Source of the DNA: Chromobacterium piscinae
Lineage (GTDB): Bacteria > Pseudomonadota > Gammaproteobacteria > Burkholderiales > Chromobacteriaceae
Reading direction: 5' to 3'
Length of the DNA stretch: 38,481 bases
NCBI RefSeq assembly: GCF_021129175.1
Contig: NZ_JAJOHV010000075.1
Span: 1-38,481 of the forward strand
Shown here: positions 8,462-38,065 of the stretch, piece by piece
Numbering within the stretch: the stretch's first letter is position 1
Layout of the letters: every line of letters begins with the position of its first letter
The notes under the pieces: model-generated
What the model saw: only the letters and a program-made list of their open reading frames with translations
Told to the model about the DNA's origin: nothing
The model's database searches: none
Made by a program: the position numbers and the translations under genes

Positions 8462-8932
8462 GTGGAATTTAACGTAACACTACTGGGCCAGGCGATCACG
8501 TTCGCCATCCTGGTATGGTTCACCATGAAGTTTGTTTGGCCTCCGCTTACCAACATGATGGATGAGCGGGCCAAGCGTATCGCTGATGGCTTGGCCGCCG
8601 CGGAACGCGGCAAGCAGGATCTGGAAGCCGCTGAAAAGCGCGTTGCGGACGAAATCCGCAAGGCGAAGCAGCAGGCTACCGAGATCGTGGTTGCCGCCGA
8701 GAAGCGTGCTAACCAGATCGTGGACGAAGCCAAGGAAGCGGCGCGCACCGAAGGTGCCCGCATCGTGGCCGACGCCAAGTCTGAAATCGACCAGGAAGTG
8801 CTGCGCGCCAAGGAATCCCTGCGCGCGCATGTCGCCGACCTGGCCGTTTCCGGCGCCGAGAAGATCCTGCGCAAGGAGATCGACGCCGCTAAGCACGCCG
8901 ACCTGCTTGCCTCCATCAAAGCGGAGTTTTAA
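8462..8932 (+). CDS. atpF: F1Fo ATP synthase subunit b
   Basis: The 156-residue subunit of the peripheral stalk has one N-terminal membrane helix ([23 protein letters not shown]) and a long charged amphipathic helix rich in Ala, Lys and Glu that dimerises and reaches to subunit delta. The start codon is GTG, supported by GGAGG about nine bases upstream and by the conserved short N-terminus [10 protein letters not shown]. Length equals the E. coli protein. One copy of b is present and no b' gene, so the stalk is a homodimer. Confidence 0.97.
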
Positions 8933-8939
8933 CTAACTC

Positions 8940-9476
8940 ATGGCAGAACTCATTACCGTCGCAAGGCCCTACGCCGAAGCGGTATACAGCCTCGCCACGG
9001 AACAGGGCAAGCTCGACCAGTGGTCGGACGCGCTGTCGTGGCTGGCTGCCATGGTGAACAACCCGGATCTGGCCCAAGTCGTCACCAATCCGAAACATAC
9101 CGCACAAGAGGTTGAGGCGCTGATGCTGGATGTGCTCGGCTCGCGCGGCAACGATGACGTGAAACGCTTCATCGCCGCGCTGATCGAGAACGCCCGTTTG
9201 ACGCTGCTGCCTGAAATCGCCGCGCAGTTTGAATTGCTGAAGGCGCAATCGGAAAACATCGTGGACGCCCTGGTGGAGTCCGCTTTTGCTTTGTCCGATG
9301 AACAGAAAGCCGAACTGACCAACACGCTTTCCAAGAAGTACGGCAAAGCCGTGCGTCTTGATGTGCGTGAGAACGCCGACCTGATCGGCGGCGTTCGCGT
9401 GTCGGTGGGCGACGATGTCATCGACGCTTCCGTGCGCGGCAAACTGCAGGCAATGGCAGTAAGCCTCAAGAATTAG
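8940..9476 (+). CDS. atpH: F1Fo ATP synthase subunit delta
   Basis: The 178-residue subunit caps the alpha3beta3 head and holds the b-dimer stalk. The N-terminal helical domain begins [15 protein letters not shown], the OSCP/delta signature, and the C-terminal part contains [22 protein letters not shown], the conserved family end. It follows atpF by seven bases and precedes atpA by eight; AGGAGAG before atpA overlaps its stop. Confidence 0.97.
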
Positions 9477-9484
9477 GAGAGATC

Positions 9485-11029
9485 ATGCAGTTGAACCCCT
9501 CTGAAATCAGCGATCTGATCAAGGCCAAGATCCAGAATCTGGCTGAAGGCGCTGAAGTTCGCACCAAGGGCACGGTTATCTCCGTGACCGACGGTATCGT
9601 CCGCATCCACGGCCTGGCCGATGTGATGCAGGGCGAAATGCTCGAATTCCCGGGCAACACCTTTGGCCTCGCCATGAACCTGGAGCGCGACTCTGTCGGC
9701 GCCGTGGTTCTGGGCGAGTACGAGCACATCTCCGAAGGCGACGAAGTCAAGTGCACCGGTCGCATTCTGGAAGTGCCGGTTGGTCCGGAGCTGATTGGCC
9801 GCGTGGTCAATGCCCTGGGTCAGCCGATCGACGGCAAAGGCCCGGTCAACGCCAAGAAATCGTCCCCGATCGAAAAGATCGCTCCGGGCGTGATCGCGCG
9901 TCAATCGGTATCGCAGCCGATGCAGACCGGCCTGAAGTCGATTGACTCCATGGTTCCGGTTGGCCGCGGCCAGCGTGAGCTGATCATTGGCGACCGTCAG
10001 ACCGGCAAGACCGCCGTGGCTCTGGACGCCATCATCAACCAGAAGGGCAATGGCGTCATCTGTATCTACGTAGCCGTAGGTCAGAAGGCTTCCTCCATCG
10101 CCAACGTGGTTCGCAAGCTGGAAGAGCACGGCGCGATGGGTCACACCATCATCGTGGCCGCCACCGCTTCCGAAGCCGCCGCCCTGCAGTTCATCGCCCC
10201 GTATTCCGGCTGCGCGATGGGCGAATACTTCCGCGACATCGGCGAAGACGCGCTGATCGTATACGACGACCTGTCCAAGCAAGCCGTCGCCTACCGTCAG
10301 ATCTCGCTGCTGCTGCGCCGTCCGCCGGGCCGCGAAGCCTACCCGGGCGACGTGTTCTATCTCCACTCCCGTCTGCTGGAGCGCGCTGCGCGCATCAACG
10401 AAGACGAAGTGGAAAAGCTGACTGGCGGCGCCGTGAAGGGCAAGACCGGTTCGCTGACCGCTCTGCCTATCATCGAAACCCAGGCCGGCGACGTATCCGC
10501 GTTCGTTCCGACCAACGTGATTTCGATTACCGACGGCCAGATCTTCCTGGAAACCGATCTGTTCAACGCGGGCATCCGTCCGGCCATCAACGCCGGTATC
10601 TCGGTATCTCGCGTGGGCGGTGCAGCTCAGACCAAGGTGATCAAGAAGCTCGGCGGCGGTATCCGTCTGGCTCTGGCCCAGTATCGCGAGCTGGCTGCGT
10701 TCGCGCAGTTCGCCTCCGACCTGGACGAAGCCACCCGCAAGCAGCTGTCCCACGGTGAAGTGGTGACCGAACTGATGAAGCAGAAGCAGTTCTCCACCCT
10801 GTCCACTGCGGAAATGGCGCTGACCCTGTGGGCGGTGAACAAGGGCAGCTACGAAGACGTTCCGGTGAAGAAAGCCCTGGCTTTCGAAGCCGAGTTCCTG
10901 GCCAACGTGCGTGCCAACCACGCCGAAGTGCTGCAGGCCGTGAACGCCTCCGGTGATCTGTCTGCCGACAACGAGAAGGTACTGGCCAAGGCGATGGAAT
11001 CGTTCAAGGCCGGCTACAGCTTCAACTGA
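9485..11029 (+). CDS. atpA: F1Fo ATP synthase subunit alpha
   Basis: The 514-residue non-catalytic nucleotide-binding subunit carries the Walker A motif GDRQTGKT at residues 169-176 and Walker [11 protein letters not shown]. The C-terminal signature [17 protein letters not shown], whose arginine serves as the catalytic arginine finger for beta, is present. Beta-barrel crown, nucleotide-binding domain and C-terminal helical domain are all full length. AGGAGAG six bases before ATG fits high expression. Confidence 0.99.
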
Positions 11030-11068
11030 GCCTTCGACTCACGTCGTAGCTAGAGAAAGGTTCAGGAT

Positions 11069-11935
11069 ATGGCAGTCGGTAAAGAGATTCTCACCAAGAT
11101 CCGAAGCGTGCAGAACACGCAGAAGATCACCCGCGCTATGCAGATGGTGTCGACCTCGAAGATGCGCAAAACGCAAGAGCGTATGCGCGCTGCCCGTCCT
11201 TACGCCGAGAAGGTGCGCACAGTCATGGCGCACCTCGCTCAGGCGAACGCGGAACTTGGTCACCCGCTGCTTGCCCGTCGCGAGACGATCAAGCGCGCCG
11301 GCATCATCCTGGTTTCCTCCGACAAGGGCCTGTGCGGCGGCTTGAACGTGAACTCGTTCAAGCGCTTCTTCGCCAAGGTCAAGGAACTGCAGGACGAGGG
11401 CGTCGAAGTCGACGTCTGCTGCCTGGGCCAGAAAGGCCTGGGAGCTGCCCAGCGCGCCCGTCTGAACGTGGTGGCAAGCGCGGTTCATCTCGGCGATGTG
11501 CCGAAGATGGAAAAACTGATTGGCCCGCTTACGGTTCTGTTCAAGCAGTACGCCGAAGGCGAACTGGATGCGGTTTACATCGTGTACTCCAGCTTCGTGA
11601 ATACCATGAAGCAGGAGCCGGCACTTGAACAGCTGCTTCCGCTGACCCCGCACCACATGGTGGTGGAGCATTCGCACTCGTGGGATTACCTGTACGAGCC
11701 GGATGCCCCTACTCTGATGGAATTCCTGGTGCGCCGTTATCTGGAATCGGTGGTGTATCAGGCTCTGGCCGAGAACATGGCTTCCGAGCAGGCCGCGCGG
11801 ATGGTGGCGATGAAAGCCGCTACCGACAACGCGGGCAACACCATCAAGCAGCTGCGCCTGGTGTACAACAAGGCGCGTCAAGCGGCGATTACGACCGAGC
11901 TGTCGGAAATCGTGGCCGGCGCCGCCGCGGTGTAG
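11069..11935 (+). CDS. atpG: F1Fo ATP synthase subunit gamma
   Basis: The 288-residue central shaft subunit begins [28 protein letters not shown], the antiparallel coiled coil that rotates within alpha3beta3; its C-terminal helix ends [20 protein letters not shown]. The Rossmann-like middle domain includes [14 protein letters not shown], a family signature. No chloroplast or cyanobacterial regulatory insertion is present. It follows atpA after 39 bases and precedes atpD after 40. Confidence 0.98.
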
Positions 11936-11966
11936 CCCACTTGCGGAACACAAAGTTTATTTTTAG

Positions 11967-13373
<1,407 letters not shown>

Positions 13374-13384
13374 GGAGAGGGCGG

Positions 13385-13807
13385 ATGTCCAAGATGCGTG
13401 TGGAAGTGGTTAGCACCGAGCAACTCATCTTCTCCGGCGAGGCGGAATTCGTCGTCGCGCCGGCTACCGAAGGCGAGATCGGCGTCTACCCGCAACACGT
13501 GCCGCTCCTGACCCGTATCAAGCCCGGCGTGCTTCGTCTGAAGGTGCCGGGCGCCAAGGAAGAAGTACTGGTGGCGGTGTCCGGCGGCATGATGGAAGTG
13601 CAGCCGAGCCTGATCACCGTGCTCGCCGATACGGCGATCCGCGGCGAGGATCTCGATGAGGCCCGCGCCAATGAGGCGAAACGCGCTGCCGAGGATGCCC
13701 TCAAGCGCGCGACCGACGACCTGAGCACGGCCAAGGCCCACGCCGCACTGGCGGTGGCGATTGCCGAGCTCAAGACGCTGGACTACCTCAAGAAGCGCGC
13801 TCACTGA
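13385..13807 (+). CDS. atpC: F1Fo ATP synthase subunit epsilon
   Basis: The 140-residue subunit has an N-terminal beta-sandwich (MRVEVVSTEQLIFSGEAEFV, GEIGVYPQHVPLLTRIKPG) and a two-helix C-terminal domain (LDEARANEAKRAAEDALKRA) that can inhibit ATP hydrolysis. It ends the atp operon and is followed 30 bases later by a strong intrinsic terminator. AGGAGAGG precedes the start. Confidence 0.97.
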   Translation: MSKMRVEVVSTEQLIFSGEAEFVVAPATEGEIGVYPQHVPLLTRIKPGVLRLKVPGAKEEVLVAVSGGMMEVQPSLITVLADTAIRGEDLDEARANEAKRAAEDALKRATDDLSTAKAHAALAVAIAELKTLDYLKKRAH

Positions 13808-13836
13808 TTGCGCGAGACGTAATCGTGTATAGTGCT

Positions 13837-13864
13837 AGGCTGCCACGCAAGTGGCAGCCTTTTT
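13837..13864 (+). terminator. Intrinsic terminator of the atp operon
   Basis: A perfect 10-bp stem AGGCTGCCAC/GTGGCAGCCT closed by the stable GNRA tetraloop GCAA is followed directly by T5. Lies 30 bases after atpC and 25 bases before glmU, so glmU must use its own promoter or read-through. Confidence 0.92.
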
Positions 13865-13888
13865 CCGTTCTGGTGAAGCAAAAAGATC

Positions 13889-15253
13889 ATGGATAGTCTG
13901 AGTATCGTCATTCTGGCTGCCGGCAAAGGCAAGCGCATGTATTCCTCCCAGCCCAAAGTCCTGCATCCGATCGGCGGCGAGCCGATGCTGGCGCGGGTGA
14001 TCCGCACCGCGCGCGGCTTGAATCCGTCCCGCCTGGTGGTGGTGTACGGCCACGGCGGCGAGCAGGTGCGCGCCAGAATCCAGGATGCGGACATCGTATG
14101 GGCCGAGCAGGCGGAGCAGCTGGGCACCGGCCACGCGCTGAAGATGGCGCTGCCGCACCTGCCGGCGGACGGGAAGACCTTGGTGCTGTACGGCGACGTG
14201 CCGCTGACCAAGGTTTCCACGTTGCAAAGGCTGGAACAGGCCGCCGGCGAGGGCATGGCGGTGCTGACCGACGTGCTGGCCGACGCCAGCGGCTACGGCC
14301 GCATGGTGCGCGGCGCCGACGGCAAGCTGAAAGCCATTGTCGAGCACAAGGATTGCACGCCGGAACAGTTGAATATCCGCGAGATCAACACCGGCATGAT
14401 GGCGCTGCCGAATGCCCGCCTGGCGGAATGGCTGAACGCGCTGAACAACGGCAACGCCCAGGGCGAATATTATCTGACCGACGTGCTGGCGTTGGCGGTG
14501 CGCGACGGCGTGGCGGTGGAAAGCGCCAGCGTCGACGCAAGTTGGGAAGCCGCCGGCGTGAACAACAAGCTGCAACTCTCGGAGTTGGAGCGCATTCTGC
14601 AAGCCAACCAGGCGCGCGCGCTGCTGGAAGCCGGCGTCACGCTGGCCGACCCGGCCCGCATCGACATTCGCGGCGAGCTCAAACATGGCATGGACGTCAG
14701 CATCGACGTCGGCTGCGTGTTCGAGGGCGCGGTGGAGTTGGGCGATAACGTGGAAATCGGCGCGCACTGCGTGTTGAAGAACGTGAGGGTCGCCGTCGGC
14801 ACCAAGATCGCGCCGTTCTCGCATCTGGAGGACGCGGTGGTGGGCGAAGAATGCAGGATCGGGCCGTACGCGCGCCTGCGTCCGGGGGCGGAGCTGGCCG
14901 GACACGTGCACATCGGCAACTTCGTCGAGGTGAAGAAGAGCAAGATCGGCGACGGCTCCAAGGTCAACCACCTGAGCTATATCGGCGACGCCGAGATCGG
15001 CCGCAAGGTCAACGTCGGCGCCGGCTCGGTCACCTGCAACTACGACGGTGTCAACAAGTTCAAGACCCTGATCGGCGACAACGTCTTCGTCGGCTCAGGC
15101 ACGCTGATGGTGGCGCCGGTGCGTCTGGAGCGCGATTCCACGATCGGCGCCGGCTCGGTGATCAGCAAGGATACCCCGGCTGGCGAACTGACCGTGGCGC
15201 GCGCGCGCCAGGTGACGGTGCCGGGCTGGAAGCGTCCGCAGAAAAAGAGCTGA
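13889..15253 (+). CDS. glmU: Bifunctional GlcNAc-1-P uridyltransferase / GlcN-1-P acetyltransferase
   Basis: The 454-residue enzyme makes UDP-GlcNAc for peptidoglycan and LPS. The N-terminal pyrophosphorylase domain shows [19 protein letters not shown] (residues 8-26) and YGDVPLT; the C-terminal left-handed beta-helix shows hexapeptide repeats ([20 protein letters not shown] onward) with acetyltransferase site [20 protein letters not shown] and SYIGDAEIG. It lies upstream of glmS, which supplies glucosamine-6-phosphate for the same pathway. The ribosome binding site is weak, and the gene sits just behind the atp terminator. Confidence 0.98.
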
Positions 15254-15420: not shown

Positions 15421-16214
15421 ATGACAAAACGAAACACTCAGCAGCGCCGCCATGCCATCGCCGCGCTGGTGCAGGAGCGGGGTGAAGTCAGCGTGGAAGA
15501 GCTGACCCAGCGCTTCGCCACGTCCGAAGTCACCATCCGCAAAGACCTGGCCCTGCTGGAAACCGGCGGCCTGTTGCTGCGCCGCTACGGCGGCGCGGTG
15601 TCGCTGCCCAGCGAGATGGCGGCGGAGCCGGATGTCGGCCAAGTTTCGAAACGAAAGCAGGCGATCGCCCGCGCGGCGGCGGAAAGGCTGCGCGACCATA
15701 ATCGCGTCATCATCGACAGCGGAACCACCACCAGCGCGATGATTCCGTTGCTGGGAGGCAAGCGCGGTCTGGTGGTGATGACCAACTCGCTGAACGTGGC
15801 CGGCCAACTGCGCGAGCTGGAGAACGAACCCATCCTGCTGATGACCGGCGGCACCTGGGACCCGCATTCGGAATCGTTCCAGGGCCAGATCGCCGAACAG
15901 GCGCTGCGTTCCTATGATTTCGACCAGCTGTTCATCGGCGCCGACGGCATAGACCTGGAGCGCGGCACCACCACCTTCAACGAGCTGGTGGGCCTGTCCC
16001 GGGTGATGGCTGAAGTGGCGCGCGAGGTGATCGTGATGGTGGAGTCGGAAAAGATCGGCCGCCGCATCCCCAATCTGGAATTGCCGTGGGACAAGATCCA
16101 CACCCTGGTGACCGATGACGGCTTGGCGCAAGATGCCAGAAACAAGATTCAAGCGAAGGGCGTGACGCTGATTTGCGCGCCCGCAGTTCAAGACAGCAGT
16201 GCAAGGAGAAAATA

Positions 16215-16215
<1 letters not shown>
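15421..16215 (+). CDS. DeoR/GlpR-family transcriptional regulator next to glmS
   Basis: The product (264 residues from ATG 15421; GTG at 15418 is an alternative) has an N-terminal DeoR helix-turn-helix ([39 protein letters not shown], residues about 9-48) and a C-terminal sugar-phosphate sensor domain ([37 protein letters not shown]). Its stop overlaps the glmS start (TAATG), so the two are coupled. In some proteobacteria a DeoR-type protein (GlmR) adjusts glmS expression to amino-sugar phosphate levels; the context suggests the same here, but the effector is not visible in sequence. Confidence 0.88.
15644..15656. promoter_or_regulatory. Palindromic operator, copy 2, inside the regulator gene
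   Basis: An exact copy of the 13-base TTTCGAAACGAAA palindrome, 242 bases after copy 1. It encodes part of VSKRK in the regulator. The spacing is close to 23 turns of B-DNA, so looping between the copies is geometrically possible. Function is inferred. Confidence 0.45.
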
Positions 16216-18044
<1,829 letters not shown>

Positions 18045-18055
18045 TGGACGCCAGT

Positions 18056-18110
18056 TGTGGTGACTAGAGCGAATAAAGTCCGTCGGATTCGAATGAAGTT
18101 CGTCGGAGTC
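18056..18110 (+). mobile_element. Possible end of a Tn7-like transposon
   Basis: TGTGGTGAC starts 11 bases after the glmS stop and is followed by two head-to-tail 20-bp repeats (18071-18090 and 18091-18110, 17 of 20 identical) with cores GAATAAAGTC and GAATGAAGTT each followed by CGTCGGA. Tn7-family ends begin TGT-N-G and carry about 20-bp TnsB sites with AATAAAGTC-like cores. No tns genes and no opposite end were found in the window, so this would be a relic or solo end. Confidence 0.45.
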
Positions 18111-18118
18111 TGACAAGA

Positions 18119-23363: not shown

Positions 23364-23840
23364 ATGAAAATCACTTCGAACACCGCCGTCACCCTGCGAA
23401 TGAAAGTCACAGACAGCCAGGGTCTGGTTTACGACGATGGCAAGCACCCTGTCTCCTACCTTCACGGCGATTACGACAATCTGTTTTCCAAGCTGGAAGC
23501 CGCGCTTGACGGGCAGGAAGCCGGTTTTCAAACCACCGTGGCGCTCGCCGCCGAAGATGCGTTCGGCGAACGCGACGAAGCTTTGGTCACCACCATGCCC
23601 AAGGCCGACTTCCCGCCCGGCGTCAAGGTAGGCGGCCAGCTCCAGCGTCCAGGCCCGGACGGCCAGCCGCGCTACTATTTCGTCACTAAGATCAAAGGCC
23701 CGACCGTCTTGCTGGACGGCAACCATCCTTTGTGCGGCAAAGACCTGCGCTTCGCCCTTAAGGTCATCGATGTGCGTGAGGCAACCGCCGAGGAAATCGC
23801 TCACCAGCATGTGCATGGCGAGCACGGTCATCAGCACTGA
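23364..23840 (+). CDS. SlyD-like FKBP-type peptidyl-prolyl isomerase
   Basis: From ATG 23364 the 158-residue product starts MKITSNTAVTLRMKVTDSQG and shows the FKBP-with-flap arrangement of SlyD: HGDYDNLFSKLEAALDGQEAG, AAEDAFGERDEALVTTMPKADF, then the inserted chaperone (IF) domain and return strand DGNHPLCGKDLRFALKVIDVREATAEE. The C-terminus is histidine-rich (HQHVHGEHGHQH), suggesting metal binding as in SlyD, which delivers nickel to hydrogenase in E. coli. Here no hydrogenase genes are nearby, so a folding role is more likely. Strong terminator follows. Confidence 0.9.
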   Translation: MKITSNTAVTLRMKVTDSQGLVYDDGKHPVSYLHGDYDNLFSKLEAALDGQEAGFQTTVALAAEDAFGERDEALVTTMPKADFPPGVKVGGQLQRPGPDGQPRYYFVTKIKGPTVLLDGNHPLCGKDLRFALKVIDVREATAEEIAHQHVHGEHGHQH

Positions 23841-23860
23841 GCCTGGCCCGCATAGACTAA

Positions 23861-23892
23861 AGCCCTCCCCATTCCGGGAGGGTTTTTTTTTG
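23861..23892 (+). terminator. Intrinsic terminator of the prolyl isomerase gene
   Basis: CCCTCCC (23863-23869) and GGGAGGG (23876-23882) pair around a 6-base loop and are followed by a run of about ten T. A textbook intrinsic terminator. Confidence 0.93.
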
Positions 23893-24287: not shown

Positions 24288-24758
24288 ATGACATTCGATA
24301 GCAAATCATTGCTTTCCGTTCTGTTGTGCCGCAGCGGCCGTCGCCTGTACGCGCTGCCGTTGACGCATGTGCGCGAAACCATGCGCGCGCTGCCGATCGA
24401 CCCGGTGCCTTCCATGTCTGATTTCCTGCTGGGTCTGGCGCTGATACGCGGTGTCCCGGTGCCGGTGCTCGATTGCGCGCGCCTGTTGGGCTCGGCGTTG
24501 TCGACGCGGGTGTCGCGCTTCGTCACGCTGACGCTGGGCGAGCGCCAACTGGCGTTGGCGGTGGACGGCGTGATCGGCGTGCGGCAACTTTCCGCCGCCG
24601 CGCTGGCCGATATCGCTCCGTTGCTGGATGGCTGCGATGACGGCCTGGTGCAATCGATCGCGACGCTCGACGCGGAGTTGCTGCTGGTGCTGCGCGCCGG
24701 CCGCATGGTTCCGGAGGAGATGTGGGAGGCCCTGGCGGTCGGGGACGGCGCGATATGA
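24288..24758 (+). CDS. CheW-like adaptor, first of the Wsp-like cluster (WspB position)
   Basis: The 156-residue product (ATG 24288) is a single CheW domain: LLCRSGRRLYALPLTHVRETM, PDFLLGLALIRGVPVPVLDCARLLG-type core and LALAVDGVIGVRQL. CheW adaptors link chemoreceptors to CheA. TTG at 24267 gives seven extra residues with no better ribosome binding site. Its stop overlaps the next start (ATGA). Position before a CheR with TPR repeats corresponds to wspB of Wsp systems. Confidence 0.9.
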   Translation: MTFDSKSLLSVLLCRSGRRLYALPLTHVRETMRALPIDPVPSMSDFLLGLALIRGVPVPVLDCARLLGSALSTRVSRFVTLTLGERQLALAVDGVIGVRQLSAAALADIAPLLDGCDDGLVQSIATLDAELLLVLRAGRMVPEEMWEALAVGDGAI

Positions 24759-26254
24759 ACATCGAGCCATCGGCCGCCCAGGTGGCGCAATTCCGCGATC
24801 TGATCGCTGGCCGTCTCGGCTTGCAGTTCGACGAAACCAAGCTGGGCAACCTAGCGCGGGTGCTGGCCCGGCATGGTGGCCGAGATCACGCGGCCTACCT
24901 GGCCGCGCTGGCGGTAGAGCATGCGCCGTTCGAGGCGCTGCATCGGCTGGCGGTCGACCTGACCGTCACCGAAACGTATTTCTACCGGAACTGCGAGCAG
25001 ATCCAGGCTTTTGCCGAGGTGGCGATGCCGGCCTGTCTGCTGGCGCGCGAAGGTTTGCCGGTTCGGGTGCTGTCGGCCGGTTGCGCCTCGGGCGAAGAGC
25101 CGTACACGCTGGCGATCGCCGCGCGCGAGACCATCGGCCTGGGCGCGGGCAGCGTGCAGATACGCGCCGTCGACGCCAATCCGGCCATGTTGGCCAAGGC
25201 GGGAGCGGCGCGCTATTCGGTCTGGTCGCTGCGCGAGGTGAACCCCGCCATGCGCGCGCGCTGGTTCGCGCGAGATGGCGACCTCTACGCGCTGAGCGAT
25301 GCCGTGCGCCGGTCGGTGCAGTTCGAGCAGCGCAATCTGGCGCGGGAAGACGCCGAACTCTGGACGCCGGGCAGCTACGACATCGTCTTCTGCCGCAACG
25401 TGCTGATGTACTTCAGCCCGGAGCAGGCACAGGCCGCCGTAGCGCGGATCGCCGACTCCATCGCCCCCGGCGGCTATCTGTTTCTGGGGCATGCGGAAAC
25501 CCTGCGCGGCCTGTCGAACGATTTCCATCTCTGCCATACCCACGCCACCTTCTATTACCGGCGCAAGTCCCAGGCTGGCGAGCCGGCGCCGGATATGAAA
25601 TTCAGCCAGCCGGCATGGGGCGGGGCGCCATTCCAGCCGTTGCCGCAGGGTGATCCCGCATGGGTCAACGTGATCGCGCGCGCGGCCCAGCGCATCGACA
25701 CGCTGGCGGTGGCGATGCCGCAAGCGGATCCCGGCCAGTACGCGCCGGCGCAGCCGGATCTGCACCATGCCTTGTCCTGCCTGCACAAGGAACAGTTCGA
25801 GCAAAGCCTGGACCTGATCGAGAAGCTGCCGCAGCAGCATGCCGACGATCCGGACGTATTGCTGCTGAAGGCCGTTTCGCTCAGCCAGAGCGGCGCGCTG
25901 GCTGCGGCGCAGGCCATCTGCCGCACACTGCTGGCGCGCGACGAGCTCAATGCCGGCGCGCATTATGTGCTGGCCTTGTGCCACGAGGAAGAGGGCGACA
26001 ATCCGGCAGCGCTGGCCCATTACCGCAGCGCCGCTTACCTGGATCCTGGCTTTGCGCTGGCGCGCCTGCACATCGGCGTGCTGGAGCGGCGAATGGCCGA
26101 ACTCGAGGCGGCGCGCCGCGATCTGGCCCAGGCCCTGCTCCTGCTGCAGCATGAGGACCCATCCCGGCTGCTGCTGTTCGGCGGCGGCTTTCCGCGCAGC
26201 GCGCTGATCGACCTTTGCCGGGCCGAACTGACTGCCCTTGGAGTCTCGCGATGA
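24755..26254 (+). CDS. CheR methyltransferase with C-terminal TPR repeats (WspC-like)
   Basis: The 499-residue product methylates receptor glutamates using S-adenosylmethionine. N-terminal helical domain (residues 1-70) contains TVTETYFYRN; SAM-binding motif LSAGCASGEEPYTLAI lies at about 106-121; IVFCRNVLMYFSPEQ at about 209-223 and GGYLFLGHAETL complete the CheR fold. From about residue 330 tetratricopeptide repeats follow (LHKEQFEQSLDLIEKL, HYVLALCHEEEGDNPAALAHYRSAAYLDPGFALA), as in WspC. TPRs on CheR usually mediate contacts within the array. Overlaps both neighbours by 4 bases. Confidence 0.95.
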   Translation: MNIEPSAAQVAQFRDLIAGRLGLQFDETKLGNLARVLARHGGRDHAAYLAALAVEHAPFEALHRLAVDLTVTETYFYRNCEQIQAFAEVAMPACLLAREGLPVRVLSAGCASGEEPYTLAIAARETIGLGAGSVQIRAVDANPAMLAKAGAARYSVWSLREVNPAMRARWFARDGDLYALSDAVRRSVQFEQRNLAREDAELWTPGSYDIVFCRNVLMYFSPEQAQAAVARIADSIAPGGYLFLGHAETLRGLSNDFHLCHTHATFYYRRKSQAGEPAPDMKFSQPAWGGAPFQPLPQGDPAWVNVIARAAQRIDTLAVAMPQADPGQYAPAQPDLHHALSCLHKEQFEQSLDLIEKLPQQHADDPDVLLLKAVSLSQSGALAAAQAICRTLLARDELNAGAHYVLALCHEEEGDNPAALAHYRSAAYLDPGFALARLHIGVLERRMAELEAARRDLAQALLLLQHEDPSRLLLFGGGFPRSALIDLCRAELTALGVSR

Positions 26255-26787
26255 GTCCCGTTCCAGCGCTGACCGGCAGCGCGGCCAGCTTGCGCGAGGA
26301 GTTCGATCGCTCGTTCTCGTTGGCCCCCGCGTCGCCTGCCGCCGGCAGCGTCAATCTGCTGACGATACGGATAGGAACCGAGCCGTATGCGATCCGTTTG
26401 GCCGATATCCGCGGCCTGCATGCCGACCGAAGCATCCTGGAGCTGCCTAGCCCGCTGCCCGAGCTGCTGGGCGTCACCAATTTCCGCGGCCAGATCGTGC
26501 CGGTGTATCAGTTGGCCGCGCTGCTGGGCAAAGCCGCCGGCGCCGCGCCGCGCTGGATGGTGCTGGCGAAGGCCAGCGCGCCGCTCGCGCTGGCCTTCGA
26601 GGCTTTCGACTCGCATATCTGCGCCGATGCCGGACAGTTGATCGCATCGGCTGACGCCGCCGGCCAGGGACGCCCGCGGGAGGGCGTGCGCACCGGGGCC
26701 GGCGTGGTGCCCGTGCTGGACATCGGCGCGCTGGCCGCGCAGATCGAGGCGCGCACCGCCCATGCGCCGCAGGGGCAACAGCCATGA
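26251..26787 (+). CDS. Second CheW-like adaptor (WspD position)
   Basis: From ATG 26251 (4-bp overlap with cheR) the 178-residue product has a 40-residue N-terminal extension and a CheW domain: LTIRIGTEPYAIRLADIRGLH, LPELLGVTNFRGQIVPVYQLAALLG, and a C-terminal GVVPVLDIGALAAQ. Having a second, extended CheW after CheR is the arrangement wspC-wspD. Its stop overlaps the ATG of a 17-codon frame that runs into cheA. Confidence 0.92.
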   Translation: MSPVPALTGSAASLREEFDRSFSLAPASPAAGSVNLLTIRIGTEPYAIRLADIRGLHADRSILELPSPLPELLGVTNFRGQIVPVYQLAALLGKAAGAAPRWMVLAKASAPLALAFEAFDSHICADAGQLIASADAAGQGRPREGVRTGAGVVPVLDIGALAAQIEARTAHAPQGQQP

Positions 26788-26837
26788 ACGCGCATAGCAC
26801 CTCCATTCCGCGCAGCACGGGAGCCAGCCATGGCTAA
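26784..26837 (+). CDS. 17-codon coupling peptide between cheW and cheA
   Basis: ATG at 26784 overlaps the cheW stop (ATGA) and encodes MNAHSTSIPRSTGASHG; its TAA lies 2 bases past the cheA ATG (26830). Ribosomes ending on cheW could restart here and stop right on the cheA start, so it may be a relay that couples cheA translation to cheW. GGGAGCC just before cheA can also act as its own ribosome binding site. Whether the peptide is made is not known. Confidence 0.4.
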   Translation: MNAHSTSIPRSTGASHG

Positions 26838-28836
26838 AGATCCCTATCGCTATTTCAGAATCGAGGCGGGCGAACTCGTCGAGCAGTTGAGCAAGGGCGT
26901 GCTGGCGCTTGAGCAAAGCGGCGGGGATGAAGAGCAGATCGCGCTGCTGCTGCGCTGGGCCCATACGCTGAAAGGCGCGGCGCGGGTGGTGCGCCAGGCG
27001 CAGATCGCTGATCTGCTGCATGGCGTGGAGGCGTTGCTGGCGCCGCTGCGGTCGTCCGAGACGTCGCTGTCTCGCAGCATGATCGACCAGTTGCTGGCCG
27101 CCTGCGACCAAGTGAATACGCTGTTAGCCCAGTTGCCGTCGGCCGACGCCAATCAAGCCGGCGCCGTCGATCAAGCCGGCGCCGGCGTTGAGGGTGGGGT
27201 CCTGCCGGCGCAGGACGCGCCGCAGCGCATCGTCCGGGCCGATGTGCTGGAGGTGGATGCATTGCTGGAGGGGCTGGGCGAAATCGGCACGGAACTGGCC
27301 GGCATGCGGCGAGCTATCGGCGCGCTGGAGGCTTTGCGCGAGCTGGCTCTGGCGGGCGAGGGGGCGTCCCAGGGCGGCAGGGCGCTGGCGGCGCAGCTCG
27401 ACGCGCTGGAGCGCAGGATGGCCGGCGGGGCGGAGCGAATCGACCGCGAGCTGCGCCAAACCCGCGACGCCGCCGAGCGGCTGCGCCTGATCCCGGTCGA
27501 CGGTATTTTCACCACGCTGGAGCGCTGCGCGCGCGACGCCGCCCATAGTTGCGGCAAGCAAGTCGCGTTCGACGCCAGAGGCGGGCAGTTGCGCATAGAC
27601 GGCGAGGTGCTCGACGTGATGCTGGGCGCCTTGCTTCAGCTGGTGCGCAATGCGGTGGCGCACGGCATCGAAACGCCGGAGCAGCGGGCCGCGTCAGGCA
27701 AGGCGGCGTCCGGCCGCATCGCGCTGGAAGTGTCGCGGCGCGGATACATGGTGTGGTTCCGCTTCCGCGACGATGGCCGCGGCATCGACCGGGACGCGCT
27801 GAGAGCGGCGCTGGCCAAGCGCGGCCAGCACGCGCCGGCCGACGATGCCGCCTTGCTGGCCAGGCTGCTGGAGGGCGGCGTGAGCACCAGCGGCTCGGTG
27901 ACGGAACTGTCCGGGCGCGGCATCGGCATGGATGTGGTGCGCGCAGCGATGGGCAAGCTGGGCGGAGTCGCCCGCGTCAGCAGCGATGCCGGCGGTACGA
28001 CGTTCGAGCTGTGCGTGCCGTTGTCGCTGGCGGCGATGGACGTGTTGCTGGTCGAGGCCGAGGGCCGGACCATGGCGCTGCCGCTGGATGCGGTGCGGGG
28101 CACGCTGCGGGTGCCGCAAGAGCAGGTGGTGCATTCGGTGGATGGCGGCGCCATCGTATATGAAGGCCAGTTGCTGCCTTTGTTGCCGCTGGCCATCGGC
28201 GCGGCGGGGCGGGCCGCGCACCAATGGTCGCCGCGCGCGATGACGGCGGTGGTCATCCGCAGCCGGGGCGAGCTGCTGGCGGTGGCGGCCAGCCGCCTGG
28301 GCGGGGTGGATAGCGTAGTGCTGCGCGCGCTTCCGCCGCTGATGACGGCCGAGCCGATGGTGCTGGGACTGTATCTGGACATCGAAGGCGAGCCACGGAT
28401 GGTGCTCGATCCGGAAGAGTTGGGCGGGGCGCTGGTCCGCCGCAGCGAAAGCGAGGCGGGGGCGCCGCGCCCGCCTATCTTGATCGTCGACGATTCGCTG
28501 ACCACCCGCATGCTGGAAAGCAGCATCCTGGAGTCGGCCGGCTACCAGGTGGAGTTGGCGGCCTCCGCCGAGGAAGGCCTGGAGCTGGCGCGGCAGAACC
28601 GCTACGGCTTATTTCTGGTCGATGTCGAGATGCCGGGCATGGATGGCTTCGGCTTCATCACGCAGGTGCGCTCGGACCCGCAGCTGTGCGACATCCCGGC
28701 GCTGCTGGTGACTTCGCTCGACACGGCGGAGCACAAGCGGCGCGGCAGCGATGCCGGCGCCAACGGTTATATTGTCAAGAACGAATTCGATCAGACGGCG
28801 TTTCTGGCGCAGATCGGGGAGCTGGTGCTGCGATGA
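26830..28836 (+). CDS. CheA histidine kinase fused to a receiver domain (WspE-like)
   Basis: The 668-residue kinase has an N-terminal Hpt domain with phospho-acceptor H45 in WAHTLKGAARVV, a linker without a P2 (CheY-binding) domain, the dimerisation helices, and an ATPase domain with N-box LVRNAVAHGIE (N274), G1 FRDDGRGID and G2 GRGIGMDVV. A CheW-like regulatory domain (LLVEAEGRTMALPLDAVRGTL) follows, then a C-terminal receiver with D598 in FLVDVEMPGMDGFGF. CheA-REC fusions are typical of Wsp and other non-motility chemosensory arrays. Overlaps cheB by 4 bases. Confidence 0.96.
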   Translation: MAKDPYRYFRIEAGELVEQLSKGVLALEQSGGDEEQIALLLRWAHTLKGAARVVRQAQIADLLHGVEALLAPLRSSETSLSRSMIDQLLAACDQVNTLLAQLPSADANQAGAVDQAGAGVEGGVLPAQDAPQRIVRADVLEVDALLEGLGEIGTELAGMRRAIGALEALRELALAGEGASQGGRALAAQLDALERRMAGGAERIDRELRQTRDAAERLRLIPVDGIFTTLERCARDAAHSCGKQVAFDARGGQLRIDGEVLDVMLGALLQLVRNAVAHGIETPEQRAASGKAASGRIALEVSRRGYMVWFRFRDDGRGIDRDALRAALAKRGQHAPADDAALLARLLEGGVSTSGSVTELSGRGIGMDVVRAAMGKLGGVARVSSDAGGTTFELCVPLSLAAMDVLLVEAEGRTMALPLDAVRGTLRVPQEQVVHSVDGGAIVYEGQLLPLLPLAIGAAGRAAHQWSPRAMTAVVIRSRGELLAVAASRLGGVDSVVLRALPPLMTAEPMVLGLYLDIEGEPRMVLDPEELGGALVRRSESEAGAPRPPILIVDDSLTTRMLESSILESAGYQVELAASAEEGLELARQNRYGLFLVDVEMPGMDGFGFITQVRSDPQLCDIPALLVTSLDTAEHKRRGSDAGANGYIVKNEFDQTAFLAQIGELVLR

Positions 28837-29872
28837 CGAAATTGCGGGTGCTGGTGGTGGAGGATTCGCTGACGGTGCGCATGTACCTGTGCGAGTTGCT
28901 GGAGTCCGATCCGGCTTTCGAGCTGGTCGGCCAGGCCGAGGACGGCAAGCAGGCCATCGAGCTGTGCCTGGCCTTGCGCCCGGATGTCATCTCGCTGGAT
29001 ATGATGATGCCCGTCATGACCGGGCTGGCCGCCACCGAGTACATCATGGCCTATTGCCCGACCCCGATCCTGGTGGTCTCGTCCTCGGTCAACCGCGGCG
29101 AGCTGTTCCGCACTTACGAGGCCCTGGCCGCAGGGGCGCTGGACGTGATCGAGAAGCCGCTGCCCGGGCAGGACCACTGGGGCGATCATTATCTGGCCAT
29201 GCTCAAGCTGGTGGCGAAGATCAAGGTGGTCACGCATTTGCGCGGCCGCCGCGCCGCGCAGGATGCGTCGCCTATCGCGCCTTGCGCGCCGGCATCGCCG
29301 CGGCAGACTATGCGACTGGTGGCGCTGGGAGCGTCGACCGGAGGGCCGAGCGCCCTGGTCGAGGTGCTGGGCGGCCTGTCCGCTGATTTCCCGTTGCCGC
29401 TGCTGGTGGTCATTCATATCGCCGAGCCCTTCGGCCATGCCTTCGTCGACTGGCTGGACGACCATTGCGTGCTGGACGTGCGGCTGGCGCGCCACGGCCA
29501 GCCGCTGCCGGCGCGCGGCGTGGTACTGGCCGCGCCCGGGCTGCATTTGCAAGTGCGCGGCGGCAAGATGGTTTGCGAGGCGGGGCCGGAGCGCCTGTCG
29601 TGCCGGCCGTCGGTCGACGTGTTGTTCGAATCAGTAGCGCAGGAATACGGCGCCGCCGCCGCCGCGGTGCTGCTGACCGGCATGGGGCAGGACGGCGCGC
29701 GCGGGCTGTTGGCGGTGCGCGCCGCAGGCGGATTGACGATCGCGCAGGACGAAGCCAGCTGCGTGGTGTATGGCATGCCGCGCGAGGCTGCGCTGCTGAA
29801 TGCAGCGCAGCGCATCCTGCCGCTGGCCGACATCGGCCCGGCGCTGGCCGCATTGGCCGCGAGGTGCGCGCC

Positions 29873-29876
<4 letters not shown>
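28833..29876 (+). CDS. CheB protein-glutamate methylesterase (WspF-like)
   Basis: From ATG 28833 (4-bp overlap with cheA) the 347-residue product has a receiver domain (VLVVEDSLTVRMYL, phospho-Asp D56 in SLDMMMPVMTG) and a methylesterase domain with catalytic triad S168 (GASTGG), H195 (VIHIAEPFG) and D287 (TGMGQDGARG). It removes methyl groups from the receptor and so opposes CheR; in Wsp systems WspF loss locks the array on. The frame is open upstream inside cheA but the overlap and the conserved N-terminus fix the start. Confidence 0.96.
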
Positions 29877-32753
<2,877 letters not shown>

Positions 32754-32779
<26 letters not shown>

Positions 32780-33140
32780 CACGCCGGGCAATATGGTGCT
32801 TACCTGCATGATGCTGGAAAGCGAAGGCCACACGCTGTTTTGCGCTGAGTGCGCGCGCGACGGCATCGATATCGCCCGGAGCGAGTCGCCGGATTTGGTG
32901 CTGATGGACGTCCAGATGCCGGAGATGGACGGCATCGAGGCCGTCGCCATTCTCAAGGGCGATCCGCGGACGCGGGCCATCGCGGTGGTGGCGTTGACCG
33001 CCTGCGTGATGAAGGGCGACCGCGAACGCATGCTGGCCGCCGGTTTCGATGGTTACATCGAAAAGCCAATCGACTATGTCAATTTCGTGGCAGAGATCAG
33101 GCGCCTGGTCGGACTGCAGCAGACTTCCGGACAGGAATAA
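32754..33140 (+). CDS. Single-domain response regulator, DivK/CheY type
   Basis: The 128-residue product (ATG 32754, overlapping the kinase end by 26 bases) is one receiver domain: acidic pocket D8-D9, phospho-acceptor D52 in LVLMDVQMPEMDG, Thr in VVALTACVMKGD, and Lys in GYIEKPID. It has no output domain. The sequence resembles DivK-like regulators that are partners of hybrid kinases rather than CheY that binds the flagellar switch. It is likely phosphorylated by the multi-receiver kinase. Confidence 0.92.
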
Positions 33141-33150
33141 TGCAAGGGTA

Positions 33151-33166
33151 GGCGGACCGATCCGCC
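33151..33166 (+). other. Hairpin between response regulator and receptor
   Basis: GGCGGA and TCCGCC pair around a CCGA loop in the 47-base gap before the receptor gene. No T-tract, so no termination is expected; it could mark a processing point that separates receptor from signalling-protein message. Confidence 0.4.
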
Positions 33167-33187
33167 GGTAATGGGAGTGGCATAATC

Positions 33188-34657
33188 ATGAATAAAAACC
33201 GGACCTTCGGCCAGAAGCTGGCTTTCGGCTTCGCGGTGTCGTCGACTTTCCTGATCGTGATCGGGATCGCGGCGTATTGGAGCATCAGCGTGCTGATTGC
33301 CACCGCTAGCTCGGTCACTCATACCCAGAAGGTGCTGGAGCATGTGTCCGGCCTGGTCAGCTTGATGAAGGATGCCGAGACCGGCCAGCGCGGCTATCTG
33401 CTTACCGGCGATCCCGCCTATCTGGAGCCGTTCCAGGCATCCGTCGCCGGCGTGCAGACGGTGCTGTCCGAGCTGCGCGGCCTGAGCGCCGACAATGTCG
33501 GGCAGCAGGCCAAGATCAGCCAGGCCGAAACGCTGGTGAACAGCAAGTTCAACGAACTCAAGCGCACCATCGATTTGCGCAAGGCCGGCCATGGCAATGA
33601 AGCGCTGAAACTCGTCCTTACCGGAGAGGGCAAGAAGTATATGGATGCCTTGCGCGCCGTGTGCGACCAGATCAGCCGCGATGAGCGCGAACTGCTGAGG
33701 AAGCGCGAGGCGGACGCGGACGCCACCTCAAGCAGCGCCAAGATGACCATCGTCGTCGGCACCGCCCTGTGCCTGTTGTTCGTGATCGGCGCCGGCATCA
33801 GCATCACCCGTTCGCTGACGGAGCGGCTGGGCGCCGCGGTGGGGCATGTGCAGAGCTCATCGGCGGAGCTGCAGGCGGCCGCCACCCAGCAGGCTTCCGG
33901 GGCAAGGGAGCAGGCCAGCGCGATGAGCGAGATCAGCACCACCATCAGCGAACTGGGCGTGACCTCGCGCCAGATCGCCGAAAGCGCCCAGCGGGTGGCG
34001 CAGATCGCCGAGCAGACCGCGGCGGCGGCTCGCAGCGGCGTGGGCACCGTGGAGAGAGGCCAGGAGGCCATCGGCGGCATCCGCCGCCAGACCGATCTGG
34101 TGGTCAGCCACATGCTTGATCTCGGCCGCAAGTCGCAGGAGATAGGCGCGGTGCTAGACATCGTGTCCGAGCTGGCGGAGCAGACCAATATCCTGGCCAT
34201 CAACGCCACCATCGAAGCCAGCGGCGCCGGCGAGGCGGGCCGCCGCTTCGCGGTGGTGGCGGAGGAAATCCGCAAGTTGGCCGACCGGGTCGCCGCGTCG
34301 ACCAAGGACATCCGCACCCAGATCGACGATGTGCGCGGCGCGGTCAACACCACTGTGATGGCCACCGAGAGCGGGGCCAAGGCGGTAGACCTCGGGGCGC
34401 GCCAGTTCGCTGAAGTGGCCATGGCCTTCAAGCAGATCGCCGATCTGGTCAGCACCACCACCGAGGCCGTGCGCGAGATCGAGCTGTCGACCAAGCAGCA
34501 GGCGACCGCGGCCGATCAGGTGCGGACCGCAGTGTCCGAAGTGGCGCAGGCGACGCAGGAGACCGAGACCAGCTCGACCCAGACCCTGCAAACCGCCTCT
34601 CAGCTGGCCGGGCTGTCGATGGACCTGCGTCGGCTGGTTCATCCGCAGGCGGTCTGA
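33188..34657 (+). CDS. Methyl-accepting chemoreceptor with CHASE3-type sensor domain
   Basis: The 489-residue protein has TM1 (about residues 13-38), a periplasmic helical domain with the CHASE3 signature [23 protein letters not shown] (about 58-80), TM2 (about 185-207), then a cytoplasmic helical bundle whose tip reads [30 protein letters not shown] (about 328-357). A recognisable HAMP domain is very short or missing after TM2 ([20 protein letters not shown]). It lacks the C-terminal pentapeptide for CheR/CheB docking. It is the only receptor in the operon and takes the role of WspA, but at the end rather than the start. Confidence 0.93.
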
Positions 34658-35897: not shown

Positions 35898-36347
35898 ATG
35901 ATGGAGCAAGTCGCCGAGCCGGCCGCCGGCATGGACAAGCGGCAGTACGAAGCGTTGTCGGAATTCCGCTACCAGTTGCGGCGCTTCCTGCATTTCAGCG
36001 AGAACGCGGCCCGTGCGGAGGGACTGACCCCGCAGCAATACCTGTTGCTGCTGCACGTGCGCGGCGTGCCGGGCCGGGATTGGGCGACGGTGGGCGAACT
36101 GGCCGAGCGGCTGCAGATCCAGCATCACGGCGCGGTGGCGTTGCTGACCCGTTGCGAGGAGCAGGGCCTGGCGGCGCGGCGCAAGAGCGAGCATGACCGC
36201 CGCCAGGTGGAAGTGCATCTGACCGCGGCCGGCGAGAGCTTTCTCGCGCGGCTGGCGGCGCGGCACGAGGCGGAGCTGCGCTCGCTGCGCGACGTGTTCC
36301 GGGTGTCGCGCATCACCGCCTTCAATGACGGGGACGGCGGACGATGA
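35898..36347 (+). CDS. MarR-family transcriptional regulator
   Basis: The 149-residue product has the winged-helix MarR core: LTPQQYLLLLHVRG, DWATVGELAERLQIQHHGAVALLTRCEEQGL (recognition helix) and the wing with RRKSEHDRRQVEVHLTAAGE, the family D-x-R-R signature. ATG at 35901 is an equally good start. It overlaps the clc gene by 4 bases and is read from a promoter region with two MarR-type operators. Autoregulation plus control of both transport genes is inferred; the ligand is not known. Confidence 0.93.
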   Translation: MMEQVAEPAAGMDKRQYEALSEFRYQLRRFLHFSENAARAEGLTPQQYLLLLHVRGVPGRDWATVGELAERLQIQHHGAVALLTRCEEQGLAARRKSEHDRRQVEVHLTAAGESFLARLAARHEAELRSLRDVFRVSRITAFNDGDGGR

Positions 36348-38065
36348 ACGCGGCGAGACGCGATTACTCGGTGGACCGGCGGCTGCTGCCGATGTCCGGC
36401 ATGGCCTTGCTGATCGGCGCGGTCAGCACCGCCGCCGCGGTGGTCCTGCTGGACCTGATCCGCCTGTGCACCAATCTCTTCTATTACCAGACCCTGTCGC
36501 TGGCCGAGCGCGAGCCGGCCGGACACGCGCTGGGGCTGTGGGCGATCGCGGCGCCGGTGGCGGGCGGCCTGCTGGTGGGCCTGATCGCGCGTTACGGCAG
36601 CGACAAGATCCGCGGCCACGGCATTCCGGAAGCGATGGAGGCCATCCTGTTCGGCCAGAGCCGGATGTCGCCCAAGGTGGCGCTGCTCAAGCCCCTGTCG
36701 TCCGGCATCGTCATCGGCAGCGGCGGACCGTTCGGCGCGGAGGGGCCCATCATCATGACCGGCGGCTCGCTGGGCTCGCTGCTGGCGCAGCGCCTGCATC
36801 TGACTGCGGCGGAGCGCAAGACGCTGCTGGTGGCCGGCGCCTGCGCCGGAATGACCGCCGTGTTCGGCACGCCGGTGGCCGCGGTGCTGCTGGCGGTGGA
36901 GCTGCTGTTGTTCGAGCTGCGTCCGCGCAGCCTGCTGCCGGTGGCGCTGGCCTGCGCTTGCGCCGGCTTCGTGCGCACGCTGTGTTTCGCCGCCGGGCCG
37001 CTGTTTCCGCTGCGCACGCCGCCCGCCACGCTGGCGGCGCTGGGCTCCTGCCTGCTGGCCGGCCTGGCCTGCGGCGGCCTGGCGGCCTTGCTGACCTGGG
37101 GCTTGTACCGGGTGGAGGATGGCTTCGGCAAGCTGCGCCTGCACTGGATGTGGTGGCCGGCGCTGGGCGGATTGGTGGTCGGCATCGGCGGCTGGCTGCA
37201 GCCGCGCGCGCTGGGGGTGGGTTACGACGTGATCGGCGACCTGCTGAACAACCGGCTGCTGCTGGAGGCGGCGCTGGCCCTGCTGGCGGTGAAGGCCGTG
37301 ATCTGGCTGCTGGCCCTGGGCTCCGGCACCTCGGGCGGGGTGCTGGCGCCGCTGCTGATGCTGGGGGCTGGCCTGGGCGCGGCGCTGGCGCCGGCGCTGC
37401 CGGGCGGCTCGCCGGAACTGTGGGCGCTGGCCTGCATGGCTGGGGTGTTGGGCAGCGTGCTGGGCGCGCCCATCACCGCCATCGTGTTCGCTTTCGGCCT
37501 GACCGGCGACGGCTCGGCGCTGCTGCCGCTGACGCTGACCACCGTGGTCGCCTGCGGCGTGACGGCGCTGACGCTGAAGCGGTCGATCATGACCGAGAAA
37601 ATCGCCCGCCGAGGCCTGCACATCCACCGGGAATACAGCGTCGATCCGCTGGAGCGGCTGCATGTGGCGGACGTGATGACGCGCGAGGCGGTGGCGATAG
37701 ACGGCGCGATGCCGGCGGCGGACGCTTGGCAGTCATTCTTCGGCCCGCGCGGCCACAACGGCTATCCGGTGCTGCGCGACGGCAGGGTGGTGGGCTTGCT
37801 GCTGCGCAGAAGGCTGCAGGGGGCGGAGGCCAGCCGGCAGCCCTGCGTCATCTGGTCCGAGCCCTTGTCGCCGTCCCAGGTGTTGCTGGCCGGCATGAGC
37901 GCCCGCCACGCCGCCGGGCGGATGGCGCAGCTGGGGTTCAGCCGGTTGCCGGTGGTGGACGGCCCGGACAGCATGCGGCTGATCGGCGTGGTGTCGCTGC
38001 GCGATCTGCTGGCCAACAGCCATGTGCTGCTGCATGAGGAAACGGTCAGGGAGCGCCTGCGGTGA
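36344..38065 (+). CDS. ClC-family anion channel/transporter with CBS domains
   Basis: The 573-residue product has the ClC fold: GHGIP at residues 91-95 in the anion-binding region, GAEGP with gating glutamate E133, and GSGTSGGVLAPLLMLGAG. Two CBS motifs occupy residues about 430-573 (HVADVMTREAVAIDGAMP, RLPVVDGPDSMRLIGVVSLRDLL). The selectivity Ser of GSGIP in E. coli ClC-ec1 is His here (H92), so anion preference may differ from chloride. E133 supports proton-coupled or gated transport. Starts within the marR stop (ATGA); the following gene begins in its stop. Confidence 0.92.
   Translation: MNAARRDYSVDRRLLPMSGMALLIGAVSTAAAVVLLDLIRLCTNLFYYQTLSLAEREPAGHALGLWAIAAPVAGGLLVGLIARYGSDKIRGHGIPEAMEAILFGQSRMSPKVALLKPLSSGIVIGSGGPFGAEGPIIMTGGSLGSLLAQRLHLTAAERKTLLVAGACAGMTAVFGTPVAAVLLAVELLLFELRPRSLLPVALACACAGFVRTLCFAAGPLFPLRTPPATLAALGSCLLAGLACGGLAALLTWGLYRVEDGFGKLRLHWMWWPALGGLVVGIGGWLQPRALGVGYDVIGDLLNNRLLLEAALALLAVKAVIWLLALGSGTSGGVLAPLLMLGAGLGAALAPALPGGSPELWALACMAGVLGSVLGAPITAIVFAFGLTGDGSALLPLTLTTVVACGVTALTLKRSIMTEKIARRGLHIHREYSVDPLERLHVADVMTREAVAIDGAMPAADAWQSFFGPRGHNGYPVLRDGRVVGLLLRRRLQGAEASRQPCVIWSEPLSPSQVLLAGMSARHAAGRMAQLGFSRLPVVDGPDSMRLIGVVSLRDLLANSHVLLHEETVRERLR

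Follow-up and report, generated by a model that had tools for sequence, protein, structure and literature searches.

To what does a chemosensory array report when its operon encodes, besides CheA, a second kinase? The question is raised by a 38,481-nucleotide stretch of Chromobacterium piscinae DNA (contig NZ_JAJOHV010000075.1 of assembly GCF_021129175.1), hereafter the window, in which positions 24288-34657 of the + strand hold eight consecutive genes. By Pfam these encode a CheW, a CheR with a weak TPR match, another CheW, a CheA with a receiver (CheA-REC), CheB, a protein of REC-REC-REC-HK-REC-REC layout (HK, histidine kinase), a lone receiver and a CHASE3 receptor. A first-pass annotation had named the same genes, in this order and with these domains, and the Pfam domain search that it suggested found every one where it had placed them. 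It had also read the locus as a Wsp-like operon, with a five-receiver hybrid kinase and a DivK-like protein in place of the usual GGDEF output. With fair rather than high confidence, we favor a different reading: an ACF (‘alternative cellular function’, non-flagellar) pathway of a distinct lineage, whose output would be the second, soluble kinase with its three N-terminal receivers, the signal running from CheA to REC1 (perhaps REC2), then to His447 and from there to the lone receiver.

Three conserved receivers on the second kinase

The second kinase (29873-32779, +; 968 amino acids, aa) has the domain order REC1-REC2-REC3-HisKA-HATPase-REC4-REC5 by Pfam and motifs; its phospho-acceptor, correctly picked out by the first-pass annotation, is His447 (31211-31213), within a HisKA-HATPase core at 31166-31930 (+). 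Read column by column, the acidic pair, phospho-Asp, Thr/Ser and Lys are all kept in REC1 (29885-30229, +), REC2 (30269-30616, +) and REC3 (30665-31015, +), as well as in the receivers of CheA and CheB and in the lone receiver. REC4 (31973-32311, +) retains its Asp, with Glu-Gly in place of the acidic pair and Ala at the Thr/Ser position, while in REC5 (32342-32686, +) the phospho-Asp is replaced by Gly, a substitution common to 6 of 15 REC5 rows (four genus members, Duganella and Pseudoduganella). The eight receivers that the first-pass annotation counted are indeed eight REC folds, but only six appear fully equipped from their residues, because REC4, short of one acidic residue of the pair and of the Thr/Ser, is doubtful, and REC5, with Gly at the phospho-Asp site, is not phosphorylatable at the usual place.

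Which part of this protein is conserved emerges from a comparison of 35 loci: the window, seven further genome loci, and 27 (L072-L096, L100, L109) of 80 relatives kept from at least 442 found by scanning named genomes for patterns derived from two short peptides. The 27 were placed in the lineage by our own reading of trees and clusters. Membership of this tri-receiver lineage combines a CheA of its clade with a REC-REC-REC kinase behind cheB, and the window has both. In 34 of the 35 loci a gene behind cheB encodes two or more receivers at its N terminus, and in 29 it encodes three, as counted with profiles built from the window's own proteins, by which divergent domains may be missed; Pfam, run on the proteins of 20 relatives including seven of the kinases, gave the same receiver counts (three or five) and placed HisKA above its cut-off in six. 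Active sites are complete in 34/35 REC1, 32/35 REC2 and 27/30 REC3 rows, as compared with 9/17 for REC4 and 4/15 for REC5 (L095 contributes two kinases to these rows), and REC4 and REC5 are missing from many relatives.

Moreover, the three N-terminal receivers are distinct from one another. On a FastTree receiver tree, all 35 REC1 rows form one clade (0.996) and 31 of the 35 REC2 rows another (0.997), and a clade of 29 tips (0.944) takes in 28 of the 29 REC3 rows used. Leaving aside the genus and Duganella, mean identity to the window at the same position is 55% for REC1, 54% for REC2 and 64% for REC3, compared to 61% for CheA-REC and 66% for CheB-REC, and to 32% for REC4, 23% for REC5 and 28% for single receivers; the CheA-REC, CheB-REC and single-receiver groups include L097-L099, which fall outside the lineage, and the single receivers may mix unrelated proteins. 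Furthermore, distances between loci correlate with CheA distances at r 0.86 for REC1-3, 0.73 for the receptor and 0.58 for the kinase core, or at 0.72, 0.50 and 0.34 once close pairs are removed. Because they form clades by position, keep these identities and track CheA, REC1-3 are, on this sequence evidence, an old set under separate constraint that has been inherited along with CheA; the lineage-specific parts are REC4, REC5 and the lone receiver. Five receivers with a DivK-like partner, to which the first-pass annotation drew attention, are thus present in the window, but the conserved part is REC1-3. The gene content, the intact and broken active sites, the lineage and the co-inheritance are observed at the loci themselves.

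A proposed route from CheA to the lone receiver

The other products of the operon supply a sensory array. Its CheA (26830-28836, +) is an Hpt-HATPase-CheW-REC protein with the Hpt histidine at His45, identified by Pfam, motifs and tree. The CheW proteins lie at 24288-24758 (+; Pfam CheW 6e-22) and 26251-26787 (+; 1e-10), and between them is the CheR methyltransferase (24755-26254, +; 499 aa; Pfam CheR 5e-44), whose TPR_16 match is weak (8e-6; 26.6 bits against a cut-off of 32.7). CheB (28833-29876, +) joins a receiver to a methylesterase (Pfam REC-CheB 7e-57, motifs), and all catalytic motifs sought in CheA, the second kinase, CheB and CheR are present. The receptor, a methyl-accepting chemotaxis protein (33188-34657, +; Pfam CHASE3 3e-43, MCPsignal 1e-35), has two strong hydrophobic segments by hydropathy, taken as its membrane segments, and the second kinase has one weaker segment, within REC5. 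In relatives the CHASE3 label comes from a home-made profile; in L058, the sole lineage receptor among the relatives checked with Pfam, CHASE3 fell below the cut-off and 4HB above it. The lone receiver (32754-33140, +; 128 aa; Pfam REC 2e-22) is DivK-like by size only: none of the 25 NCBIfam models listed, out of 89 matching, reached its cut-off, and the DivK identity was dropped.

A worked example of a chemosensory kinase acting through a second kinase is the Che3 pathway of Rhodospirillum centenum. There, CheA3 phosphorylates REC1 of CheS3, and CheS3, not CheA3, phosphorylates CheY3; epistasis places cheS3 over cheA3, CheA-REC serves as a sink, and the pathway controls cysts (PMC3868531). 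The window shares with Che3 eight kinds of parts (receptor, two CheW, CheR, CheA-REC, CheB, a second kinase with N-terminal receivers and a lone receiver), a likeness by described parts and not by sequence comparison.

A motif in the receivers bears on the first step of such a route. SLTxR (or SMTxR) follows the acidic pair in 29/35 REC1, 33/38 CheA-REC and 22/38 CheB-REC rows, and in 9/35 REC2, 0/30 REC3, 0/17 REC4, 0/15 REC5 and 3/24 single receivers; in other loci it occurs in 5/51 CheA-REC, 1/68 CheB-REC and 0/134 GGDEF-, kinase- or otherwise linked receivers. In the window it is present in REC1 (as SLTVR), CheA-REC and CheB, and absent from the lone receiver. Given this distribution, REC1 and CheB-REC may be served by one donor, CheA.

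In the proposed mechanism, the CHASE3 receptor, coupled by the two CheW proteins and tuned by CheR and CheB, would set the activity of CheA, which would pass phosphate to CheB (adaptation), to its own receiver (a sink or brake) and, on the second kinase, to REC1 and perhaps REC2. An AlphaFold2 model of this kinase contains one long predicted helix (residues 371-444; 30983-31204, +) from REC3 to just before His447, which suggests a plain receiver-to-kinase route. Through this helix, receiver state would set kinase or phosphatase activity at His447, which would charge or discharge the lone receiver, whose own target would be unlinked. Docking or braking, rather than a step in the relay, is the probable role of REC4 and REC5, and a branched or buffered relay is possible. 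We infer every phosphotransfer step, its sign and the target; the reading as a whole is preferred because of the domains and motifs, the separate CheA clade (see below), the REC1-3 clades with complete sites, their tracking of CheA distances, SLTxR, the Che3 analogy and the helix model.

Several observations weigh against this reading. A third receiver is not visible in 6 of the 35 loci: L092 and L094 run off the contig, L078, L087 and L090 have two receivers, and in L086 that side of the cluster has no gene of this sort. Distances for the kinase core follow those of CheA less closely than REC1-3 distances do, and the lone receiver, poorly conserved (28%), does not adjoin the kinase in several relatives. 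SLTxR, found also in a quarter of the REC2 rows, may reflect descent, and common descent would explain it equally well, since REC1 is weakly sister to the CheB receivers on the receiver tree. CheS3 has a PAS domain and an HWE core, whereas the window kinase has HisKA and no PAS match. Additionally, the kinase model, built from six sequences, is of modest confidence (mean pLDDT 73.6, pTM 0.32) and low at residues 437-452.

Wsp, Che3 and other points of comparison

The Wsp identity proposed by the first-pass annotation does not survive the CheA phylogeny. The CheA tree has 73 rows: one branch (SH-aLRT 99) sets off the 33 used from this lineage, six Wsp CheAs form a separate clade (100), the genome's other four CheAs form a third (97), and 30 rows are ungrouped. 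Five of the Wsp rows were recognized by the gene order receptor-CheW-CheR-CheW-CheA-CheB-REC-GGDEF and the sixth (L171) is a putative WspH locus, none being named Wsp in its record. A topology in which the window and its four nearest relatives join the six Wsp CheAs was rejected (p-AU 7e-6, a value made less exact by a test group named after an earlier FastTree had been seen and by a tree of the ‘quick’ kind), and Wsp membership with it. Because the operon's CheA and the other four all group apart from the Wsp rows, the genome has no CheA in the Wsp group. The window operon has neither of the Wsp layouts, with the receptor first and the REC-GGDEF protein WspR last, or with wspH 5'. The first-pass annotation was right that the operon has no GGDEF gene; there is none on the contig, which is the whole window, and the genome's 44 GGDEF matches all lie elsewhere. 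A Wsp-like gene order alone is hence insufficient to identify a Wsp system.

Could the operon still be a surface-sensing Wsp system of the H variety, with a hybrid kinase in WspR's place as the phosphorylation target of CheA? Its CheW-CheR-CheW-CheA-CheB order is that of wspB-F, and the Burkholderia WspH is likewise a REC-kinase output without GGDEF (PMC8552884). We nevertheless consider this very unlikely: the CheA lies outside the Wsp group, from which the topology test separates it, and the best receptor match is CHASE3, not 4HB. Moreover, the window's kinase gene is 3' and encodes five receivers, while wspH lies 5' of its operon, with one receiver by Pfam in the putative example L171 and a CheA in another clade, and the Burkholderia study found no H-system with a 3' regulator (PMC8552884). 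According to the same source, WspH mutants had no significant difference in cyclic di-GMP, a result that its authors interpret as either an absence of regulation or rapid buffering. Were this an ordinary flagellar chemotaxis cluster, with the lone receiver in the role of CheY, the complete che core and the stand-alone receiver would be accounted for; the idea has next to no probability, as the genome's four remaining CheA loci group apart from this one and have single receivers, CheW or receptors for neighbors, and as CheR-TPR and multi-domain regulators mark ACF pathways (PMC3447774).

Two further alternatives keep the parts and reroute the phosphate. CheA could phosphorylate the lone receiver directly, in the manner of CheY, while the second kinase, with its many receivers, served in parallel to buffer or drain off phosphate. 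In favor of this, the lone receiver has a complete site, a trio of intact receivers would be a good sink, and CheA-REC is one in Che3. That the lone receiver lacks the SLTxR borne by CheB, CheA-REC and REC1 of its own operon, that the second kinase keeps all catalytic motifs sought, and that Che3 as described works the opposite way (PMC3868531) make this arrangement unlikely. The HK-REC order, which is that of relay kinases, and the Asp retained in REC4 would also suit a forward relay from His447 to REC4 and on through CheA-like Hpt domains, that is, a classical hybrid-kinase phosphorelay using the CheA Hpt. Its chance is very slim, with REC4 degenerate in the window, sites complete in 9/17 REC4 and 4/15 REC5 rows, and both domains missing from many relatives.

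The closest known systems are Che3, the Burkholderia H-system and ACF pathways with CheR-TPR and multi-domain regulators. The window shares with ACF pathways CheA-REC, regulators with a kinase module and, to judge by a weak TPR match, perhaps CheR-TPR (PMC3447774), its multi-domain response regulator being the REC-REC-REC-HK-REC-REC protein, and its CheA stands apart from the genome's other four on the tree. In the survey text, about 40% of the response regulators of CheR-TPR clusters carry a kinase module (PMC3447774). This figure, like WspH (PMC8552884), bears out the first-pass remark that hybrid kinases were already known as outputs; such outputs of CheR-TPR clusters are established, with Che3 as a worked example (PMC3447774, PMC3868531). 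The parts match those of Che3 in kind, which does not establish orthology, since the kinase cores and PAS differ: CheS3, as described, has two N-terminal receivers (the second without Asp), PAS and an HWE kinase core, with no C-terminal receivers described (PMC3868531), whereas the window kinase departs from this REC-REC-PAS-HWE layout with three intact N-terminal receivers, HisKA, no PAS match in Pfam at E 0.01, and two degraded C-terminal receivers. The ACF survey text names no three-receiver lineage, although its Table S2 might list such proteins (PMC3447774), and the accessible part of a Corallococcus study contains nothing on a three-receiver architecture (PMC6194562). A literature search of titles and abstracts, with most subscription journals outside its reach, returned no three-receiver kinase behind CheA-REC, which is not proof of absence. 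The Comamonas Flm pathway, which in the material available has single receivers and belongs to the type IV pilus class, was for that reason dropped as a parallel. What does appear to be new is that a lineage can be delimited that is sparse, spans several phyla and carries three distinct receivers on its second kinase.

Related clusters of other layouts were also met. Those of L061, L069, L157, L173 and L175 have, as the regulator that follows cheB, a long protein of 890-1109 aa with REC and GGDEF domains. L153, on a plasmid of Novosphingobium sp. KACC 22771 (4223-12550), has the order receptor-CheW-CheR-CheW-CheA-CheB-REC-GGDEF and a CheA among the Wsp rows; this host is an alphaproteobacterium, and Wsp systems are reported in beta- and gammaproteobacteria alone in the accessible text of PMC8552884.

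Distribution, neighborhood and outputs

A CheA of this kind occurs in 4 of 19 same-genus genomes (its own included), and the genus copies have identical genes and order as far as the compared stretches reach. In an order sample, 4 of 398 other genomes have it at 49-53% identity (537-594 bits; next best 267 bits); a phylum sample gave 0 of 397 other genomes at E 1e-85, and a class-wide search (E 1e-60, 547 aa) found the own genome alone among 369. The low counts for order, phylum and class are lower bounds, because at most three candidates were scored per genome. Lineage members among the 80 relatives include Duganella (79% in CheA), Pseudoduganella, Roseateles, Sphingomonas, Rhizobiales, Acidobacteria, Planctomycetota, Minicystis, Archangium, the actinomycete Virgisporangium and others; among the matches listed, the records span Pseudomonadota, Acidobacteriota, Myxococcota, Planctomycetota and Actinomycetota. 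Many are metagenome bins, with isolate titles for Duganella sp. BJB476, Minicystis rosea, Sphingomonas soli and Virgisporangium aurantiacum. The Duganella copy, from an Oxalobacteraceae record, is 73-89% identical in protein across all eight genes; in the CheA tree it sits within or beside the group of genus copies, with low inner-branch support (0.578).

The cluster is probably sparse yet multi-phylum by horizontal spread, as its sequence distribution suggests, and relocation and loss may offer an alternative. A fixed insertion site is unsupported: a tblastx comparison of six pieces of the window's flanks with the surroundings of the cluster gave no match in L011, L012, L013 or L072 and two weak short ones in L073, L013 having almost no flank and L011 none upstream. 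Nineteen plasmid records were rejected as relatives, with CheA at 30-36% and none covering 80% of the query; the four examined hold other CheA-CheB clusters. The receptor gene, last in the window as the first-pass annotation had it, holds that place locally: it precedes cheA on the same strand in 27 of the 35 loci and comes last in five (genus and Duganella), with three otherwise arranged or cut.

Within the window operon, five of the seven gene junctions overlap (four by 4 bases, one by 26) and two have gaps, of 42 and 47 bases. Its upstream boundary is marked by a terminator-like hairpin (23859-23886, +; consensus scan) 3' of a SlyD-like gene (23364-23840); this hairpin has the longest stem (11 pairs) among such sites, of which 8 were found against 6.6 expected from shuffles. 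The SlyD-like gene does not adjoin the cluster in G006 and G009. Farther upstream, 2600-15253 encodes MnmG/GidA, ATP synthase alpha and beta subunits and a GlmU-like protein, a neighborhood often close to the replication origin. Two long open reading frames, 16191-18116 (-) and 36325-38034 (+), have no Pfam match and may be spurious.

In relatives, the gene behind the kinase encodes, by Pfam, REC-GGDEF-EAL in L057, REC-PAS-GGDEF-EAL in L060, REC-GGDEF in L095 and a REC-nucleotide cyclase in L078; a further hybrid kinase lies downstream on the same strand in L074, L076, L077, L079 and L100. Second messengers as output are a fair guess, not a rule. At L095 (Myxococcales metagenome-assembled genome, MAG; 5533-13633), two three-receiver kinases have a REC-GGDEF gene between them and a single receiver behind, and in L078 (Comamonadaceae MAG; 9222-10316) the receiver is fused to an adenylate/guanylate cyclase domain. 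Receivers of 251-273 aa stand behind the kinase in L084 (8294-9049), L093 (16335-17156) and L088 (16348-17103); those of L084 and L093 have about 130 C-terminal residues without a Pfam match.

More tentatively, as a possibility rather than an expectation, the three non-interchangeable receivers could integrate CheA phosphate (at REC1/REC2) with a different input at REC3. The second kinase would then be a coincidence gate in an unnamed, horizontally spread lineage, with its outputs (lone receiver, GGDEF-EAL, nucleotide cyclase, further kinases) swapped between lineages. If the favored ACF reading is correct, the Che3-type detour, in which CheA regulates a second kinase and not CheY, would recur in a conserved multi-phylum lineage, and its receivers, held distinct, would constitute a natural three-input phosphorylation gate.

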